This document shows, piece after piece, positions 4,986-31,581 of a stretch of 64,000 nucleotides of DNA (within the stretch, counting starts at the first letter, position 1; each line of letters begins with the position of its first letter). This DNA is from Chitinophagaceae bacterium. Lineage in GTDB: Bacteria > Bacteroidota > Bacteroidia > Chitinophagales > Chitinophagaceae. The notes under the pieces were generated by a model. The model made no database searches. It saw only the letters and a program-made list of their open reading frames with translations, and was not told the DNA's origin. The stretch spans positions 124,001 to 188,000 of the forward strand of contig JAMLGT010000008.1 of assembly GCA_023957755.1 (NCBI GenBank). The letters are read 5' to 3'. The translations under genes and the position numbers were made by a program.

Positions 4986-6152
4986 TCAGAGCTTATTGTT
5001 CTTTTCTATTAGTTTAAGGATTGAGGTAACAGATTCTCTTGAAGTGTATCCATCTTCAGGAGTATTCATCACATAGTCCAACAGTTGATTAATAGTGGAG
5101 GTTGCTACGTGAATTCTGGTGTCGGAGGATGCATAATAAATAAAAATTTCGTCTCCATCCTGTATCCAGCCATTGGAGAATACTACATTTGAAACATCGC
5201 CAATTCTCTCCTCTCCCTGAGGCGCCAGGAAATACCCCCCGGGCTTCCTGATTATTTTGGTGATGTCATTAAGATCTGTGAGGAACAGGTAGAGTACATA
5301 CCGAAGGCCCGCAGCAGTATTACGTACTCCATGAGCCAGATGGAGCCATCCCTGATTAGTTTTGATAGGTGCCGGGCCTTGACCGTTTTTCAGCTCGTAA
5401 ACTGTGTGATATACTTTCTTGTCAATTATAATTTCTTCATCGATGGTGGCAGAGGTTATGTCGTCACAAAATCCAATTGCAATGCCACCTCCATTGCCTG
5501 TTTCAATAAACGAATCCTGTGGGCGTGTGTAAAAAGCATATTGATGATTGACGAATTCAGGGTGGAGGACCACATTTCTTTGCTGGCTTGACTTTGTCTT
5601 CAGATCGGGTAGCCGTTCCCAAATCTCCAGGTCTTTTGTGCGCACTATTCCACATTGGGCTATTGCTGCACTTTGGTTGCCATCCGGTGCATGAGGATCC
5701 CTGCGTTCCGTACAGAAAAGACCGTAAATCCATCCATCCTCGTGCGTTACCAGGCGCATATCATAAATGTTTGTGTCAGGGTCTTCGTTTTCTTCCAATA
5801 GAATTGGCTTACCTGTAAATTCAAATCCGTCTATGCCATTATCACTTTGGGCAATTGCAAAAAAAGATTTTCTGTCCACTCCTTCAACTCTCGCAACCAG
5901 GCAGTATTTGCCATTATATTTAATAGCTCCCGGGTTGAAGACGGCGTTCACACCGATTCTTTCCATGAAATAGGGGTTTGTGTCCCGGTCAAAATCATAT
6001 CGCCAGGTAAGAGGTACATGTCCGGACGTAAGTACGGGATATTTGTACCTAAAATAAATTCCATTCCCCGGCTCAATCCTCGAGTTTACTCTCTCGAGAA
6101 GTTTCTTATGCTGGAGGATAATCTCTTTTTTCCTATGGTTGAAATCTGTCAT
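4986..6152 (-). CDS. 4-O-beta-D-mannosyl-D-glucose phosphorylase, GH130
   Basis: 388 residues from the ATG at 6152; an in-frame GTG six codons upstream is less likely. The sequence follows the GH130 subfamily 1 pattern: GNGIYFRYKYPVLT, MERIGVNAVFNPGAIK, NIYDMRLVTHEDGWIYG with the presumed catalytic Asp, LHPEFV and YYASSDTRIHVATS. The enzyme phosphorolyses mannosyl-glucose to mannose-1-phosphate and glucose in the cytoplasm, conserving bond energy. It takes the product of the adjacent epimerase, and the tight spacing (2 bp and 25 bp) indicates one transcript. Identification is strong from whole-length similarity to the Bacteroides enzyme as I remember it. Confidence 0.92.
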   Translation of the reverse strand: MTDFNHRKKEIILQHKKLLERVNSRIEPGNGIYFRYKYPVLTSGHVPLTWRYDFDRDTNPYFMERIGVNAVFNPGAIKYNGKYCLVARVEGVDRKSFFAIAQSDNGIDGFEFTGKPILLEENEDPDTNIYDMRLVTHEDGWIYGLFCTERRDPHAPDGNQSAAIAQCGIVRTKDLEIWERLPDLKTKSSQQRNVVLHPEFVNHQYAFYTRPQDSFIETGNGGGIAIGFCDDITSATIDEEIIIDKKVYHTVYELKNGQGPAPIKTNQGWLHLAHGVRNTAAGLRYVLYLFLTDLNDITKIIRKPGGYFLAPQGEERIGDVSNVVFSNGWIQDGDEIFIYYASSDTRIHVATSTINQLLDYVMNTPEDGYTSRESVTSILKLIEKNNKL

Positions 6153-13511: not shown

Positions 13512-15668
13512 ATGCGGATACCTGGTATCAACTGTAAGAAAGGCTTCTGTTTTTTTTCGGTTATTATTTTTTTATGCATCGTTAATAATGGTAATGCGCA
13601 GTTTCAGGTTAGGGACAATGACGTGATGGCCAGGGCTGATTCAATTCTGAACCTAATGACTCTTGAGGAGAAGGTAATATATATTGCCGGCATGCCCGGA
13701 GCGAAGATAAATGCCATACCAAGACTAGGGTTGAAATCTATCCGAATGTCAGATGGACCTTTAGGAGTAAAGGCTCAGGCAGAAGGTGATCAGGCCGATA
13801 AGATAATGGCTACTGCCTTTCCGTCTGGTATAACAATGGCATCCACATGGAATCCTGAGTTGATTTATAAGGTGGGTGAAGCGATAGGTACGGAGTCAAA
13901 GTTTAATGGAATAGACATATTACTTGGCCCATCTCTTAATATTATCCGCCTTCCTCAGAATGGACGCAATTTTGAATATTATAGTGAAGACCCCTATCTT
14001 ACTTCAAGAATGGGTGTTGACTATGTGAAGGGTTTACAAAGCAAAAAAGTATTGGCCAATATAAAACACTTTGCAGCTAACAATACTGAGTTTAATAGAT
14101 ACAAATCAAATTCAATTGTGGACAGCCGTACGCTTCATGAAATATATCTGCGGGCTTTTGAGGCAAGTGTAACCGAAGGGGGGGCGGCAACAGTGATGAC
14201 AGCGCATAACCTTCTAAACGGGTTTCATTGTGCAGAAGATCCATTTTTACTGGACACCATTTTACGACAGCAATGGCAGTTTAATGGATTTGTGATATCT
14301 GACTGGAACTCAAACTACGAAGTTATCCCTGCCTTAAAATATGGTGTTGATATTGAAATGCCAAGGCCAAAAGTGTTTGCAAAAGATAGCGTACAATGGG
14401 CGTTAAAAACTGGCAACGCAAGCGTAAATGATATTGATGAAAAGGTGCGCCGCATACTTTACACTTGTTTGTATTTTGGCTTATATGATGAGCCTGAAAC
14501 TAACCGTAAAAGGCCTGATTTAGACCAACACGCAAAAATTGCGTTGCAGGTTGCGGAAGAAGGAACTGTTTTGTTGAAAAACGAAAACAAAGTGTTGCCA
14601 ATTAACAGAAAGAATATAAAAAAGATTGTTGTAGTTGGTGAGAATGCTGATAAAACGCCTCTCTATGGCGGAGGAGCAGCAGGTATGAAGACCACAAGAA
14701 GTATATCATTGCTGGAAGGAATAAGAGTGGCAGCCGGTTCGGATATAGAAGTCAACTTTTTAAAGTATCCTGAGTCGGATGTAGAAAAGGTCAGGATAGC
14801 AGAGGCAGATTGGGTGGTTGTGGGGATGGGATTCAATTCTGTTATCGAAGGGGAAGCACATGATCGCCCTTTTGACCTACCCTCCAACCAACTGAATCTG
14901 ATCAACTACCTAAATTCTTTAAACAAAAATATAATTGCTGTAGTGTATGCCGGAGGAGCTGTTAACATTTCTCCCTGGCTTGATAAGGTAAAAGGCCTGT
15001 TTATGGGATGGTATATGGGAGATGCTACCGGCAGAGTCGTAGGGAGGATGATCTTTGGTGATATCAATCCTTCCGGTAAGCTACCCATCACCATAGAAAA
15101 AAGGTGGGAGGATTCGCCTGTGTACCCATATTACGACACTTATGCTAGTGAAGCAGGCATGCCTCCTTTGTTTAAAAGATTCTATGAAAAAGTAAATGGT
15201 CCGGTTGCAGCTTCAGAAATGATTGAAACTAAATATGGTGAAGGAGTTTTTATGGGCTACAGATACTTCACAACAAAAGGCATTGAGCCTTTGTTTTCCT
15301 TTGGATTTGGGTTGTCTTATTCTGATTTTTCAATTAATGAGCTGAAAACTAATGTGGACAAGAATGGTATTTCAGTGAGTGTGTTAGTTACTAATATCGG
15401 TAGAACAGATGGTGCTGAGGTATTACAGTTATATGTGGGAGATAATATGGCTAGTGTGCCCAGGCCGGCAAAGGAATTAAAGAGTTTTAGGAAAATCTTT
15501 CTTTCCCCGGGACAATCTCAAAGGGTAGCATTTAACCTTACAGAAAAGGATTTGAGTTTCTGGGACGTGCAAACAGATAAGTGGAAAGTAGAACCGGGTA
15601 GCTTTACTATATATGTAGGAAACTCTTCCTCAGATAACCGGCTTTCAGGAAAGGTGGAGTGGAAATGA
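13512..15668 (+). CDS. GH3 beta-glycosidase, secreted
   Basis: 718 residues; signal peptide at about 1-30 (hydrophobic VIIFLCIVNNGNAQF). The GH3 N-terminal barrel shows MTLEEKVIYIAG, MSDGPLGV, GRNFEYYSEDPYL, KHFAANNTE and the nucleophile Asp in GFVISDWNSNYE near residue 265. The GH3 C-terminal sandwich follows (GTVLLKNENKVLPI, GEAHDRP), then a fibronectin-III-like domain (GAEVLQLYVGD). It removes terminal beta-linked glucose or related sugars, probably in the periplasm. Around 14370-14620 the codon choice differs from the flanks (see findings). Confidence 0.88.
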   Translation: MRIPGINCKKGFCFFSVIIFLCIVNNGNAQFQVRDNDVMARADSILNLMTLEEKVIYIAGMPGAKINAIPRLGLKSIRMSDGPLGVKAQAEGDQADKIMATAFPSGITMASTWNPELIYKVGEAIGTESKFNGIDILLGPSLNIIRLPQNGRNFEYYSEDPYLTSRMGVDYVKGLQSKKVLANIKHFAANNTEFNRYKSNSIVDSRTLHEIYLRAFEASVTEGGAATVMTAHNLLNGFHCAEDPFLLDTILRQQWQFNGFVISDWNSNYEVIPALKYGVDIEMPRPKVFAKDSVQWALKTGNASVNDIDEKVRRILYTCLYFGLYDEPETNRKRPDLDQHAKIALQVAEEGTVLLKNENKVLPINRKNIKKIVVVGENADKTPLYGGGAAGMKTTRSISLLEGIRVAAGSDIEVNFLKYPESDVEKVRIAEADWVVVGMGFNSVIEGEAHDRPFDLPSNQLNLINYLNSLNKNIIAVVYAGGAVNISPWLDKVKGLFMGWYMGDATGRVVGRMIFGDINPSGKLPITIEKRWEDSPVYPYYDTYASEAGMPPLFKRFYEKVNGPVAASEMIETKYGEGVFMGYRYFTTKGIEPLFSFGFGLSYSDFSINELKTNVDKNGISVSVLVTNIGRTDGAEVLQLYVGDNMASVPRPAKELKSFRKIFLSPGQSQRVAFNLTEKDLSFWDVQTDKWKVEPGSFTIYVGNSSSDNRLSGKVEWK

Positions 15669-28009: not shown

Positions 28010-29740
28010 ATGAATAGAGTTAAATTTCCGATGTTACTTTTATTTATTGGATTATTTACTACAGCATCTGCTCAGAAGACTGTGTTTGAGTTGAGCAATG
28101 GTAAGAAGACAGCTACCTATTTTCAGGTAATAGACTTCTATAAAGGCCTTACAAAGCAATCTTCCAAAATAAAAATGGTAGAAAAAGGGCTGACGGATGC
28201 AGGGTATCCGCTTCATGTGGTAATGATTGATAATGAAGGTGTATTTGATCCCGCAAAGTGGCACCAGCAAAAGAAAGTGGTAATCATGATTAATAACGGG
28301 ATTCACCCGGGTGAGCCTGATGGTATTGATGCCAGTATGATGCTGGTCCGTGATTTTGCAGCAGGCAAATTCAAACTGCCGGGGAATGTAGCTCTGGCGT
28401 TTATTCCGGTGTACAACATAGGCGGATTCCTGAACCGTCAGCAGTTGACACGCATAAGCCAGGACGGTCCGGAAGAATACGGGTTCAGGGGAAACGCACA
28501 GAACTATGATCTCAACAGAGATTTTACCAAAGGCGATACACGCAACTCCAGATCGTGGGCAGAGATTTTTCACTGGCTCAACCCTGACATCATGATTGAC
28601 AACCACGTTAGTGATGGGGCCGATTATCAATATGTCATTACACTGATATCTACTCAGTACGATAAATTAGGCGGAAGCCTGGGTGAGTGGATGCGCAATC
28701 AGTTTGATCCGGGAGTATATGAGAAGATGAAAGAAAGAGGTCAGGAAATGTATCCTTATGTAGCGGTGGAAGGGAGCGACCCGTCTGTGGGTTTTGGTAT
28801 GTTTTACGATTCTCCCAGATACTCTACCGGCTATGCAGCTTTGTTTGGTACTATTGCCTATATGCCTGAGACTCACATGCTGAAGCCGTATAAGGACAGG
28901 GTATATGCCACATTTGACCTGATGCAGGTAATCATTGGCGAGGCTGCCCGGAAAGGGAATGAGCTGATCAGGGAGCGACAGAAAGCCTTGCAGGCAAAAT
29001 TGACACAGACAGAATTCCCATTGGGCTGGCGAATGGACAGAAGCCAGTATAAGATGCTGACCTTCAGAGGCTATGAGGCAGGGAGGAAAGAGAGTGGTGT
29101 GTCACCACTGCCTGTGCTGTTTTTCGACAGAACTAAGCCATTTTCAAAGGAGATTAAACATTACGAAACTTATTTACCGCTGAATATTGTGAAGAAACCC
29201 CGTGCTTATATCATCCCTCAGGGATGGTGGAAGGTGATTGAGTTGCTCCGTCTGAATCAGATAAAAATGGAGCGGTTACCCAAAGACACTCAGATAACAG
29301 TGACCGTATATCAAATAGAATCACTCAATTCAATGCCAAATGCATACGAAGGACATCATCGCAATAGTCAGGTGAAGGTAAAAACCAGTCAGGAAAAGGC
29401 ACAGTTCCTGAAAGGCGATTATGTGATTCAGACGAACCAGCCTGGGAACCGATTTCTTGTAGAAATGCTGGAGCCTACAGGTGATGACAGCTATTTTTCC
29501 TGGAATTTCTTTGATCCGATATTACAACGTAAAGAAGGCTACACGCAATATCGATGGAACGACCAGGCTGTGGAATTCCTGAGAAATAATCCGGACGTAA
29601 AGGAGCGGTTTGATGAAAAGATGCGTACCGATTCTGCTTTTGCCAAAAATCTGGGACAGCAGTTAAACTTTATTTTCATTAATTCTCCTTACTATGAGAA
29701 GGCATATATGAGATATCCGGTATATAGGGTAGAACCCTAA
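28010..29740 (+). CDS. M14-family zinc carboxypeptidase, secreted
   Basis: 576 residues with a signal peptide (MLLLFIGLFTTASAQ). Zinc ligands of the M14 family are in NNGIHPGEPDG (His and Glu near residue 99-102) and DNHVSDGADY (His near 198); DLNRDF carries the substrate-binding Arg; AYMPETHMLKP near 285 carries the catalytic Glu. The C-terminal 250 residues have no motif I recognise. Likely a periplasmic or outer-membrane-associated peptidase that trims C-terminal residues; substrate unknown. Confidence 0.85.
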   Translation: MNRVKFPMLLLFIGLFTTASAQKTVFELSNGKKTATYFQVIDFYKGLTKQSSKIKMVEKGLTDAGYPLHVVMIDNEGVFDPAKWHQQKKVVIMINNGIHPGEPDGIDASMMLVRDFAAGKFKLPGNVALAFIPVYNIGGFLNRQQLTRISQDGPEEYGFRGNAQNYDLNRDFTKGDTRNSRSWAEIFHWLNPDIMIDNHVSDGADYQYVITLISTQYDKLGGSLGEWMRNQFDPGVYEKMKERGQEMYPYVAVEGSDPSVGFGMFYDSPRYSTGYAALFGTIAYMPETHMLKPYKDRVYATFDLMQVIIGEAARKGNELIRERQKALQAKLTQTEFPLGWRMDRSQYKMLTFRGYEAGRKESGVSPLPVLFFDRTKPFSKEIKHYETYLPLNIVKKPRAYIIPQGWWKVIELLRLNQIKMERLPKDTQITVTVYQIESLNSMPNAYEGHHRNSQVKVKTSQEKAQFLKGDYVIQTNQPGNRFLVEMLEPTGDDSYFSWNFFDPILQRKEGYTQYRWNDQAVEFLRNNPDVKERFDEKMRTDSAFAKNLGQQLNFIFINSPYYEKAYMRYPVYRVEP

Positions 29741-29758: not shown

Positions 29759-29790
29759 AAAAAAAAACCGCGTCCTTTGGGGGTTGCGGT
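29759..29790 (-). terminator. Terminator of candidate ncRNA
   Basis: A 5-bp GC-rich stem (ACCGC/GCGGT on the minus strand) with a 14-nt loop, followed on the minus strand by nine T residues (29767-29759). The U-run direction points to minus-strand transcription, not to the preceding peptidase gene. Confidence 0.55.
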
Positions 29791-30046
29791 ACAGTTAGTT
29801 TTCACGGCCAGGATTTGGTTGTCAATTAGTTTGATGAGGATATTGGTTGTATTTCATCAAATAAATTGTCATATTTAAGAGTCTTTAGAAAAAGACCGAA
29901 ATACTGAGGTTAAGAAGTTGACTGATATCGGACTTTACTGGTTTTTCAGGAAATTGGTAAATCTGTTTTTCCTTTGGATTTTTGGAGTTTTGGATAACTT
30001 GGATAATTATTATTGATTAACGCCATTCAACATCAATCAACTTCTG
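29759..30046 (-). ncRNA. Candidate structured non-coding RNA (about 285 nt)
   Basis: The 485-bp gap after the peptidase gene has no reading frame of note but holds a complete minus-strand transcription unit. There is a promoter (see 30050-30081) and a terminator (ACCGC 29767-29771 with GCGGT 29786-29790, then nine U). Between them lie three hairpins. (a) 30011-30040: eight pairs including one G-U. (b) 29881-29896: GTCTTT/AAAGAC with a 4-nt loop. (c) 29823-29868: a 5-bp then an 8-bp perfect helix (CAATT/AATTG and TTTGATGA/TCATCAAA) separated by a 2x2 internal loop. A stretch near 29970-30003 has four UCCAA copies spaced 8-9 nt. I do not recognise a known RNA family. Confidence 0.5.
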
Positions 30047-30049
30047 GTG

Positions 30050-30081
30050 CAAATATAGAGGCGAAGTACACGCTTAACAAT
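30050..30081 (-). promoter_or_regulatory. Promoter of candidate ncRNA
   Basis: On the minus strand TATATTTG (30050-30057) matches TAnnTTTG exactly, and ATTG (30078-30081) lies 20 nt upstream, the usual Bacteroidota -33 spacing. No protein gene follows it; the transcript would run into the hairpin and T-run at 29759-29790. Confidence 0.6.
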
Positions 30082-30225
30082 AGCAGTATTGCCCTTTTTT
30101 CACTGAGTTATATTTACCACCTGGTTAGTAGATAGCTCATAAATACCAATCGTAAAACTACGACAATTTAAGAATTTATCTAAAATGTTACCTGGTGCTA
30201 AAGTTTAGATAGTTTTTATAACTAC

Positions 30226-31581
30226 CTATTTGGCAAGGCTTTGTATAAGATCGTATTTTGTTATGATGTGATAAGTGCCTGTTTCATCCTTACTTAATAC
30301 GGCCCCATTTTGCTTAGAAATTAAATGGCTAATGTTGTCAACTGACATGGTGAAATTTACCACAGGATACTCTTTTTCCATCACAGATGATACGGATTGG
30401 TTCCTGATTTCGGCATTTTCTATTACTTTATTAAAAAGGCCGCTTTCGCTGATAGAGCCTATGAATCCATCTCCGTTCATTACTGGCAGATTAGAGATAT
30501 CGTGCTCCCTCATGAGTTCAATGGCTTCAGATACAGTCTGGTCCGGGCTAACGGTGATAAGTTTTTGAGACGCTCTTGCATTTACAAGGTCTTTGAAGGT
30601 CTTTACATCCAGAAATCCTCTTTCCATCATCCACTGGTCGTTATAAATCTTTGCCACATACCTACTGCCATGGTCGTGAAAGATGCAAACTACTACGTCA
30701 TCTGGTTTTAGCTGGTCTTTTAGTTGAAAGACTCCCCGCAGGCAACTTCCTGCACTGTATCCAACGAATATCCCTTCCTCTCGTGATATTCTTCTCGCCA
30801 TTACTGCACCATCCTTATCTGTCACCTTTTCAAAATGGTCGATATATTGCATATCGTAATTGGCAGGAACAAAGTCTTCCCCAAATCCCTCACTTATGTA
30901 TGGATACACTTCTTTTTCGTCGAGTTCACCGGTATCAAAGTATTTTTTCAGTAGGGAGCCATAAGTATCGATGGCCCATACTTTGATATTGGGATTTTTC
31001 TCCTTCAGATATTTTCCGGTGCCCACTACAGTACCACCTGTACCGGCCGCCACTACCAGATGCGTAATCTTGCCTTCTGTTTGTTCCCAAATTTCAGGGC
31101 CTGTCTGTTCATAGTGAGCCAGCCTATTGGCCAGGTTATCGTATTGATTTACATACCATGAGTTAGGGATTTCAGTAGCGAGTCTTTTAGAAACAGAGTA
31201 ATAGGAGCGGGGATCTTCAGGTTCTACGTTGGTTGGACAAACGATTACTTCAGCACCTAATGCCTTGAGAATATCTGCTTTTTCTTTTGATTGTTTATCA
31301 GTGGTTGTGAAAATACATTTGTAGCCCTTAATGATAGCGGCCATTGCAAGTCCCATCCCTGTGTTGCCCGATGTCCCTTCGATGATGGTACCGCCTGGTT
31401 TTATCTTTCCTTCTGCTTCTGCTACTTCCAGCATCTTAAGTGCCATACGGTCTTTAATAGAATTTCCCGGGTTAAAATACTCCACCTTTGCCAATACAGT
31501 GCAGGGCAGGTTTCGGGTGATATTATTAATCCTGATTAATGGCGTGTTGCCGATAGTTTCCAGAATGTTATTTTTCCACAT
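30226..31581 (-). CDS. Cystathionine beta-synthase (PLP enzyme with CBS-domain pair)
   Basis: 451 residues. The PLP fold type II core (1-320) begins NTPLIRINNI, with the PLP Lys in NPGNSIKDRMA near residue 41 and the phosphate loop in EGTSGNTGMG near 68 and GTGGTVVGTG near 180. The last 120 residues form two CBS domains (SDQTVSEAIELMREHDISNLPV and SVSSVMEKEYPVVNF), which are typical of cystathionine beta-synthase rather than plain cysteine synthase. It should condense homocysteine with serine, or act as a cysteine synthase, in the cytoplasm. No gamma-lyase gene is adjacent. Confidence 0.85.
   Translation of the reverse strand: MWKNNILETIGNTPLIRINNITRNLPCTVLAKVEYFNPGNSIKDRMALKMLEVAEAEGKIKPGGTIIEGTSGNTGMGLAMAAIIKGYKCIFTTTDKQSKEKADILKALGAEVIVCPTNVEPEDPRSYYSVSKRLATEIPNSWYVNQYDNLANRLAHYEQTGPEIWEQTEGKITHLVVAAGTGGTVVGTGKYLKEKNPNIKVWAIDTYGSLLKKYFDTGELDEKEVYPYISEGFGEDFVPANYDMQYIDHFEKVTDKDGAVMARRISREEGIFVGYSAGSCLRGVFQLKDQLKPDDVVVCIFHDHGSRYVAKIYNDQWMMERGFLDVKTFKDLVNARASQKLITVSPDQTVSEAIELMREHDISNLPVMNGDGFIGSISESGLFNKVIENAEIRNQSVSSVMEKEYPVVNFTMSVDNISHLISKQNGAVLSKDETGTYHIITKYDLIQSLAK

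Follow-up and report, generated by a model that had tools for sequence, protein, structure and literature searches.

A conserved multicopy RNA of Chitinophagaceae as a probable multi-site sponge for a putative start-codon-directed small RNA

Introduction

What is encoded by the gene-free interval between a cystathionine beta-synthase-like gene and a convergent peptidase-like gene in a 64,000-nucleotide stretch of a Chitinophagaceae genome (GCA_023957755.1, contig JAMLGT010000008.1, positions 124,001 to 188,000; this whole stretch is hereafter the window)? A preliminary description of this DNA had proposed an unannotated structured RNA on the minus strand, possibly a divergent 6S RNA or a regulatory RNA with repeated, sponge-like UCCAA motifs. 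The window RNA belongs to an RNA family not described before which, in the genomes searched, is found only in Chitinophagaceae, and it probably functions as a multi-site sponge titrating a start-codon-directed, FopS-like small RNA (sRNA). The regulatory proposal is thereby supported by computation, through a conserved family, enriched and mostly unpaired motifs, and a co-occurring antisense sRNA. Two RNA genes, their conservation, complementarity, predicted accessibility and co-occurrence were established computationally, and both RNAs are presumably transcribed; promoter and terminator signals accompany both genes.

The window RNA

The RNA of the window, called the long RNA to distinguish it from its partner sRNA, consists of the following parts.

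29759..30047, minus strand: long RNA gene (predicted sponge), ~285 nt, supported by promoter and terminator in the sequence, fold and covariance-model match
30078..30094, minus strand: conserved upstream box GGGCAATACTGCTATTG, with the -33 element ATTG (30078-30081) inside
30050..30057, minus strand: promoter -7 element TATATTTG, read from the sequence
30032..30044, minus strand: 5' strand of the long-range helix P1, GAAGUUGAUUGAU
29914..29926, minus strand: 3' strand of the long-range helix P1, AUCAGUCAACUUC
30029..30038, minus strand: 5' strand of the hairpin P2, GAUUGAUGUU, overlapping P1
30015..30024, minus strand: 3' strand of P2, GGCGUUAAUC
29974..30003, minus strand: four UCCAA motifs
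29823..29868, minus strand: hairpin of 5+8 bp with a 2x2 internal loop
29759..29789, minus strand: terminator, a GC hairpin (29768-29789) followed by nine U (29759-29767)

The elements reported in the preliminary description could all be located again. ATTG, 20 nucleotides and the -7 element follow one another on the minus strand as a promoter of the Bacteroidota type, the four UCCAA copies have their 5' ends at 30003, 29994, 29986 and 29978 (spacing 9, 8 and 8), the symmetric internal loop of the 5+8 bp helix is present, and so are the terminator hairpin and its U-run. The 5' end of the RNA was placed near 30045 from the position of the -7 element, and a covariance model matches the RNA at 29910-30046. 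The segment 29760-30047 folds at -59 kcal/mol (z -4.5), with none of 200 shuffles equally stable. Its strongest structural feature is P1, which is absent from the preliminary description. The longest ATG frame within the RNA encodes 26 amino acids. A simple consensus terminator scan omitted this terminator and returned a sole terminator-like site elsewhere, on the plus strand.

A match to a known family had been named beforehand as evidence against the initial proposal. Rfam scans of the window, of the intergenic gap and of 20 long-RNA loci assigned no family to the long RNA; in the window, no match attained the gathering score; four matches at E 1.4-2.6 are at chance level.

A multicopy RNA family in Chitinophagaceae

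A DNA search recovered further partial matches in the genome carrying the window (G000) and, this genome included, matches in 21 of 59 genomes, several of which hold tandem copies ~400 bp apart. Alignment of 48 sequences revealed a near-invariant 5' domain. With a first covariance model, 49 of 147 Chitinophagaceae genomes were found to contain the long RNA (1-10 matches each); matches of this model, like those of the sRNA model in the family, were counted at E <= 0.001, and some of them are weak. A second model, built on 115 diverse sequences, matched 57 of the 346 genomes searched at order level and 3 of the 247 searched at class level. All the listed matches from the order and class searches fall in Chitinophagaceae. 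Among the matches listed in a P1-pattern scan of named genomes are Flavihumibacter, Pseudoflavitalea, Pinibacter, Ferruginibacter and metagenome-assembled genomes, some labelled only to higher ranks. Other copies in G000 lie at C23:83535-83648 (minus), C30:258199-258301 (plus) and C30:221569-221677 (minus). At loci L034-L039, L084 and L112, two or three copies stand in tandem, with a spacing that is often 400-500 bp.

For the analysis of the family, 211 copies were picked by a regular expression requiring P1-like strands and a promoter-like element, and 198 of them have at least 600 nt downstream. Copies were merged only when the domain was identical, so that a genome present under two names may be counted double where its copies are not the same, and both sets may still include a few picks from the wrong strand. 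The promoter consensus, GTAAATACCG ... GGGCAATAnTGCTCTTG, ~20 nt, TATCTTTG, was derived from 159 copies chosen for a TAnnTTT element. P1, formed by GAAGUUGAUUGAU and AUCARUCAACUUC, is paired in 99.7% of cells across 115 sequences, and double-sided changes occur at three of its pairs, one instance each; part of this set comes from the matches listed in the P1-pattern scan, which makes the conservation partly circular. Base pairs are kept through changes in homologues, the signature that the preliminary description had proposed to look for, although the closing helix is too conserved to show many such changes. P2 is a local hairpin on the 5' strand of P1, and its stems differ between genera; it beats 90% of shuffles in 144 of 211 copies. 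As its 5' strand overlaps P1, the two helices are predicted to compete. A U-rich tract (at least 6 U in 10) follows P1 in 192 of 211 copies, the window copy not being one of them, and 132 of the 198 copies, versus 7 of 198 shuffled sequences, have a terminator within 600 nt.

The body of the RNA is marked by two motifs, AUCC and GAAAACC, both abundant in the loop closed by P1 and in the tail. Over the 198 copies, AUCC is found 7.8 times per ~345 nt versus 2.7 in dinucleotide shuffles, and the unit AUCC-N1-7-GAAAACC 1.52 times versus 0.09 expected. The predicted pairing probability of AUCC is 0.25 versus 0.47 for all positions (66 of the 198 copies) and versus 0.41 for AUCC in shuffles (of 30). 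In predicted folds, the AUCC sites are hence mostly accessible, as is expected of sponges.

An antisense sRNA in the same genomes

A search of G000 for AUCC-N1-8-GAAAAACC returned 15 sites, versus 4 for the reversed control. Four of the 15 are antisense to a short, repeated gene, that of the partner sRNA. This multicopy RNA of ~70 nt has GGUUUUUCAUAGGAUAUUGGAUU as its 5' core, together with a terminator hairpin and U-run; its gene has a TAnnTTTG-like element, and its 5' stretch reads CUYGGUUUUUCAUAGGAUAUUGGAUUUUA. Across 11 sequences, double-sided changes are seen at four of the eight pairs of the terminator stem. The 23-nt core showed no mismatch in 40 distinct copies although three mismatches were allowed; these copies are mostly best-scoring loci in which a T-run was required, weaker model matches were left out, and diverged copies exist. 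Such diverged copies, at C23:40452 of G000 and in genome G033, keep UUUUCAUAGG.

In G000, sRNA copies lie on the minus strand at C4:14965-15039 and 15170-15244 (in tandem), C24:7521-7597 and C32:198899-198975, and a weak variant with an altered core is found on the plus strand at C23:40452-40524. Across the family, the sRNA model matches 107 of 147 genomes and 68 of 92 genera, with 1-13 matches each. Among the 247 genomes of the class it gave eight matches, six of them in Chitinophagaceae; the two outside the family (E 5.7e-4 and 9.0e-4) were taken as chance. In Rfam scans of four sRNA loci at E up to 1, nothing matched close to the sRNA, the presence of a FopS model in release 15 not having been checked, and the sub-threshold matches obtained from these loci fall in another stretch of L088.

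Complementarity and co-occurrence of the two RNAs

In the long RNAs, 8-mers antisense to the 5' region of the sRNA are enriched in two blocks, AAUCCAAUAUCC and GAAAAACCAA. In the first, CCAATATC is found 223 times versus 2.0 expected, a count to which a single box at the P1 3' strand contributes (in 77 of 198 copies); in the second, GAAAAACC is found 155 times versus 9.3 expected. The centre of the sRNA core is little enriched (CCTATGAA, 6 versus 2.4). Between UCC and GAAA, a spacing of 3-4 nt is the most frequent and 8-9 nt forms a second rise, whereas shuffles are flat. The same two blocks were found in the tail alone and in the loop without the P1 box.

Duplex predictions were made with controls on 99 copies (test at -12 kcal/mol) or 50 of the 198. 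At <= -15 kcal/mol, the long RNA has 5.96 sites per copy versus 1.21 (maximum 2.78) for 40 shuffled seeds, and reversed long RNAs have 1.66 (50 copies in each case). The window RNA has five such sites versus a shuffled-seed mean of 0.61, and none of 200 shuffled seeds reached five.

29964..29987, minus strand: predicted sRNA site 1, -15.7 kcal/mol
29937..29958, minus strand: predicted sRNA site 2 (ACCAAUUUCCUGAAAAACCAGU), the best, -21.9 kcal/mol
29907..29937, minus strand: predicted sRNA site 3, overlapping the P1 3' strand, -16.3 kcal/mol
29825..29847, minus strand: predicted sRNA site 4, ACCAAUAUCC..., -18.5 kcal/mol
29794..29819, minus strand: predicted sRNA site 5, -16.4 kcal/mol

The hairpin of 5+8 bp carries the ACCAAUAUCC of predicted site 4 in its loop.

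The two RNAs also co-occur. The sRNA is present in 49 of 49 genomes holding the long RNA versus 58 of 98 without it (p 4.8e-9) and, by genus, in 29 of 29 versus 39 of 63 (p 2.3e-5), these p values being overstated as the genomes are related and not independent. Genomes with the long RNA have 6.2 sRNA matches each, versus 2.6 for those without.

Proposed mechanism

Binding, the direction of control, mRNA targets and any switch role of P1 and P2 are inferences. The sRNA would repress mRNAs by pairing at their start codons, because the full perfect complement of its core is AAUCCAAUAUCCU-AUG-AAAAACC; this complement contains CCU-AUG-AAAA and CCUAUGAAAAAC. Each long-RNA molecule, once made, would titrate several sRNA molecules, and this titration would relieve the repression of genes otherwise silenced. 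The sites match the flanks of the core, and the unmatched centre would allow the sRNA to be held without start-codon mimicry and without one long duplex. Whether the sites are open may depend on P1: in most copies P2 is predicted to compete with it, and one of the conserved sites overlaps it. Hfq was considered as a partner and rejected: none of the 147 family genomes has a match above the cut-off, and three weak matches lie below it.

Several observations weigh against such a sponge, the relatedness of the genomes noted above being one. As the sRNA was found through the long RNA's own motif, 12 matched bases exist by construction; the AAUCCAAU part of the match lies outside the search pattern and is free. 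In the window RNA, three of 200 shuffled seeds reach the best single energy, and at -12 kcal/mol its six sites are equalled by seven of 200 shuffled seeds, with shuffled RNAs reaching seven. The start-codon target scan (644 open reading frames (ORFs), 0.86 Mb of G000) was not above shuffled seeds overall: energies at ranks 1, 5 and 20 were -25.7, -19.1 and -16.1, versus means of -20.9, -18.0 and -15.8 and best values of -23.6, -19.8 and -16.6 for 15 shuffled seeds. Fifty-eight genomes hold the sRNA without a detected long RNA, P2 does not outperform 90% of its shuffles in about one-third of the copies, and one variant long RNA lacks P1. This last RNA (G000:C35, promoter 5047-5082, minus strand) has the same promoter, AUCC/GAAAACC motifs and a terminator; L268 and L288 are similar. 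As its motifs occur without P1, the core function may reside in them and not in the helix, and the superfamily is wider than the covariance models.

Two ORFs, L329:17870 and L359:3388, beat every shuffled seed, the second having a doubtful start. The best predicted target, L329:17870 (plus strand, -25.7 kcal/mol), has the start region CCAATGTCTATGAAAAAACCAAG; its product looks by eye like a secreted esterase, and a similar-looking protein is encoded in the window. A regular expression for near-perfect start-codon complements, run over 2.46 Mb of loci, returned antisense strands of sRNA genes and a few weak candidates.

Alternative explanations

The long RNA could instead be a protein sponge. 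RNAs of the CsrB/RsmZ type carry repeated unpaired motifs, exist in several copies and have a conserved upstream box, and the long RNA shares these properties, the box lying in its promoter. Unpaired AUCC and GAAAACC would then titrate an RNA-binding protein, for instance an RRM protein (G000 encodes one RRM_1 protein, and Hfq is missing above the cut-off across the family), with the sRNA as a second ligand or a coincidence. We consider this unlikely, as for more than 20 nt the motifs follow, in order and spacing, the sequence antisense to a conserved sRNA, and the sRNA accompanies the long RNA in every genome that has it. Moreover, unlike in CsrB/RsmZ, GGA is not enriched (2.2 versus 2.5 per copy in shuffles of the 198 copies; two in the window RNA), and neither the window nor 20 loci gave an Rfam match to these families. 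Still less probable is a circuit running in the reverse direction, in which the sRNA would inhibit or destabilise the long RNA, itself the effector or a stored target. Antisense pairing is itself directionless, and since the sRNA occurs without a detected long RNA in 58 genomes it would have another job; yet the AUG in the core complement points to mRNA targets, and titration accounts for numerous weak sites in each long RNA better than control of that RNA would.

Two further possibilities appear very improbable, each about as much as the other. One is that the RNA is a 5' regulatory leader of the BtuF-like gene, which lies downstream on the same strand in 59 copies; a CCUCCUGC/GCAGGAGG hairpin lacking a U-run closes some of these in other genera. 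The window copy, however, is followed by a gene on the opposite strand and finishes with a terminator, and a terminator is present in 132 of 198 copies. The other is a DNA repeat, a mobile element or a 6S-like RNA. The gene is multicopy and sometimes in tandem, and it has a 13-14 bp inverted repeat around ~100 bp; 6S RNA is likewise built on a long helix closing a large internal region. Promoter and terminator are nevertheless conserved outside the repeat, synteny with the CBS-domain gene is kept, and no viral contig contained the one exact pattern searched. The divergent 6S RNA evoked in the preliminary description is not borne out: unlike 6S RNA, the long RNA is present in several copies per genome, the motifs in its body are mostly unpaired, and no Rfam 6S match was obtained in the window or the 20 loci.

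Genomic neighbourhood

The window RNA is flanked by two genes.

30226..31581, minus strand (same strand as the RNA): upstream gene with PALP and CBS domains, cystathionine beta-synthase-like
28010..29740, plus strand (opposite strand to the RNA): downstream convergent gene, M14 peptidase-like

A homologue of the CBS-domain gene lies directly upstream in 80 of the 194 copies having an upstream ORF, and it is combined in 37 copies with the downstream BtuF-like gene, which was named from its sequence by eye. This CBS-domain/BtuF-like neighbourhood marks an old home locus. The window copy is one of those at this locus, and other copies seem to have spread from it. At L065, L069, L073, L081 and L105, the CCUCCUGC/GCAGGAGG hairpin closes the motif-rich stretch before the BtuF-like gene, and by eye the flanking UCACCG/CGGUGA could pair in some copies. 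A second neighbourhood recurs in 10 copies (L096, L099, L107, L126, L152, L195, L204, L213, L216, L219, others), with a divergent LuxR/NarL-type response regulator-like gene upstream and a ~130-aa protein downstream (names by eye).

Discussion

RNA sponges are a known kind of regulator. CrfA of Caulobacter crescentus is reported to sequester the paralogous sRNAs SisA-D by pairing with their conserved core, and these sRNAs repress mRNAs near the translation start (PMC12559287). The arrangement predicted here is similar, as a non-coding RNA would act against the conserved core of paralogous sRNAs. Unlike CrfA, the Chitinophagaceae RNA has several sites per molecule and is multicopy, and it belongs to a different phylum in which, for this family, Hfq is lacking above the cut-off. 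In Bacteroides thetaiotaomicron, FopS sRNAs are described as covering start codons (PMC11697453). The partner sRNA resembles them in being multicopy and in combining a single-stranded 5' stretch with a terminator hairpin. It differs in giving no Rfam match at the limit used above, while FopS is said to have been deposited in Rfam; the word sponge is absent from the FopS paper. Neither RNA of Chitinophagaceae was found in the Rfam scans, and the open-licence literature searched yielded no paper on either.

Beyond the sponge itself, it is possible, if somewhat short of an even chance, that the two RNAs form a dedicated and old Hfq-less circuit amplified on both sides, in which a multicopy sRNA with an unchanging 23-nt core would face a multicopy, multi-site sponge that is gated by P1 and P2 and leaves the AUG-recognising centre unmatched. 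Such a circuit would give many Chitinophagaceae an undescribed and old regulatory layer. Knowledge of RNA-based control in Bacteroidota is scarce beyond Bacteroides. With the sRNA in 107 of 147 genomes and the sponge only where the sRNA occurs, the pair would constitute a global regulatory axis of the whole family, opening questions on RNA-RNA regulation without Hfq, on the reasons for multicopy sRNAs and on bulged target mimicry in bacteria.
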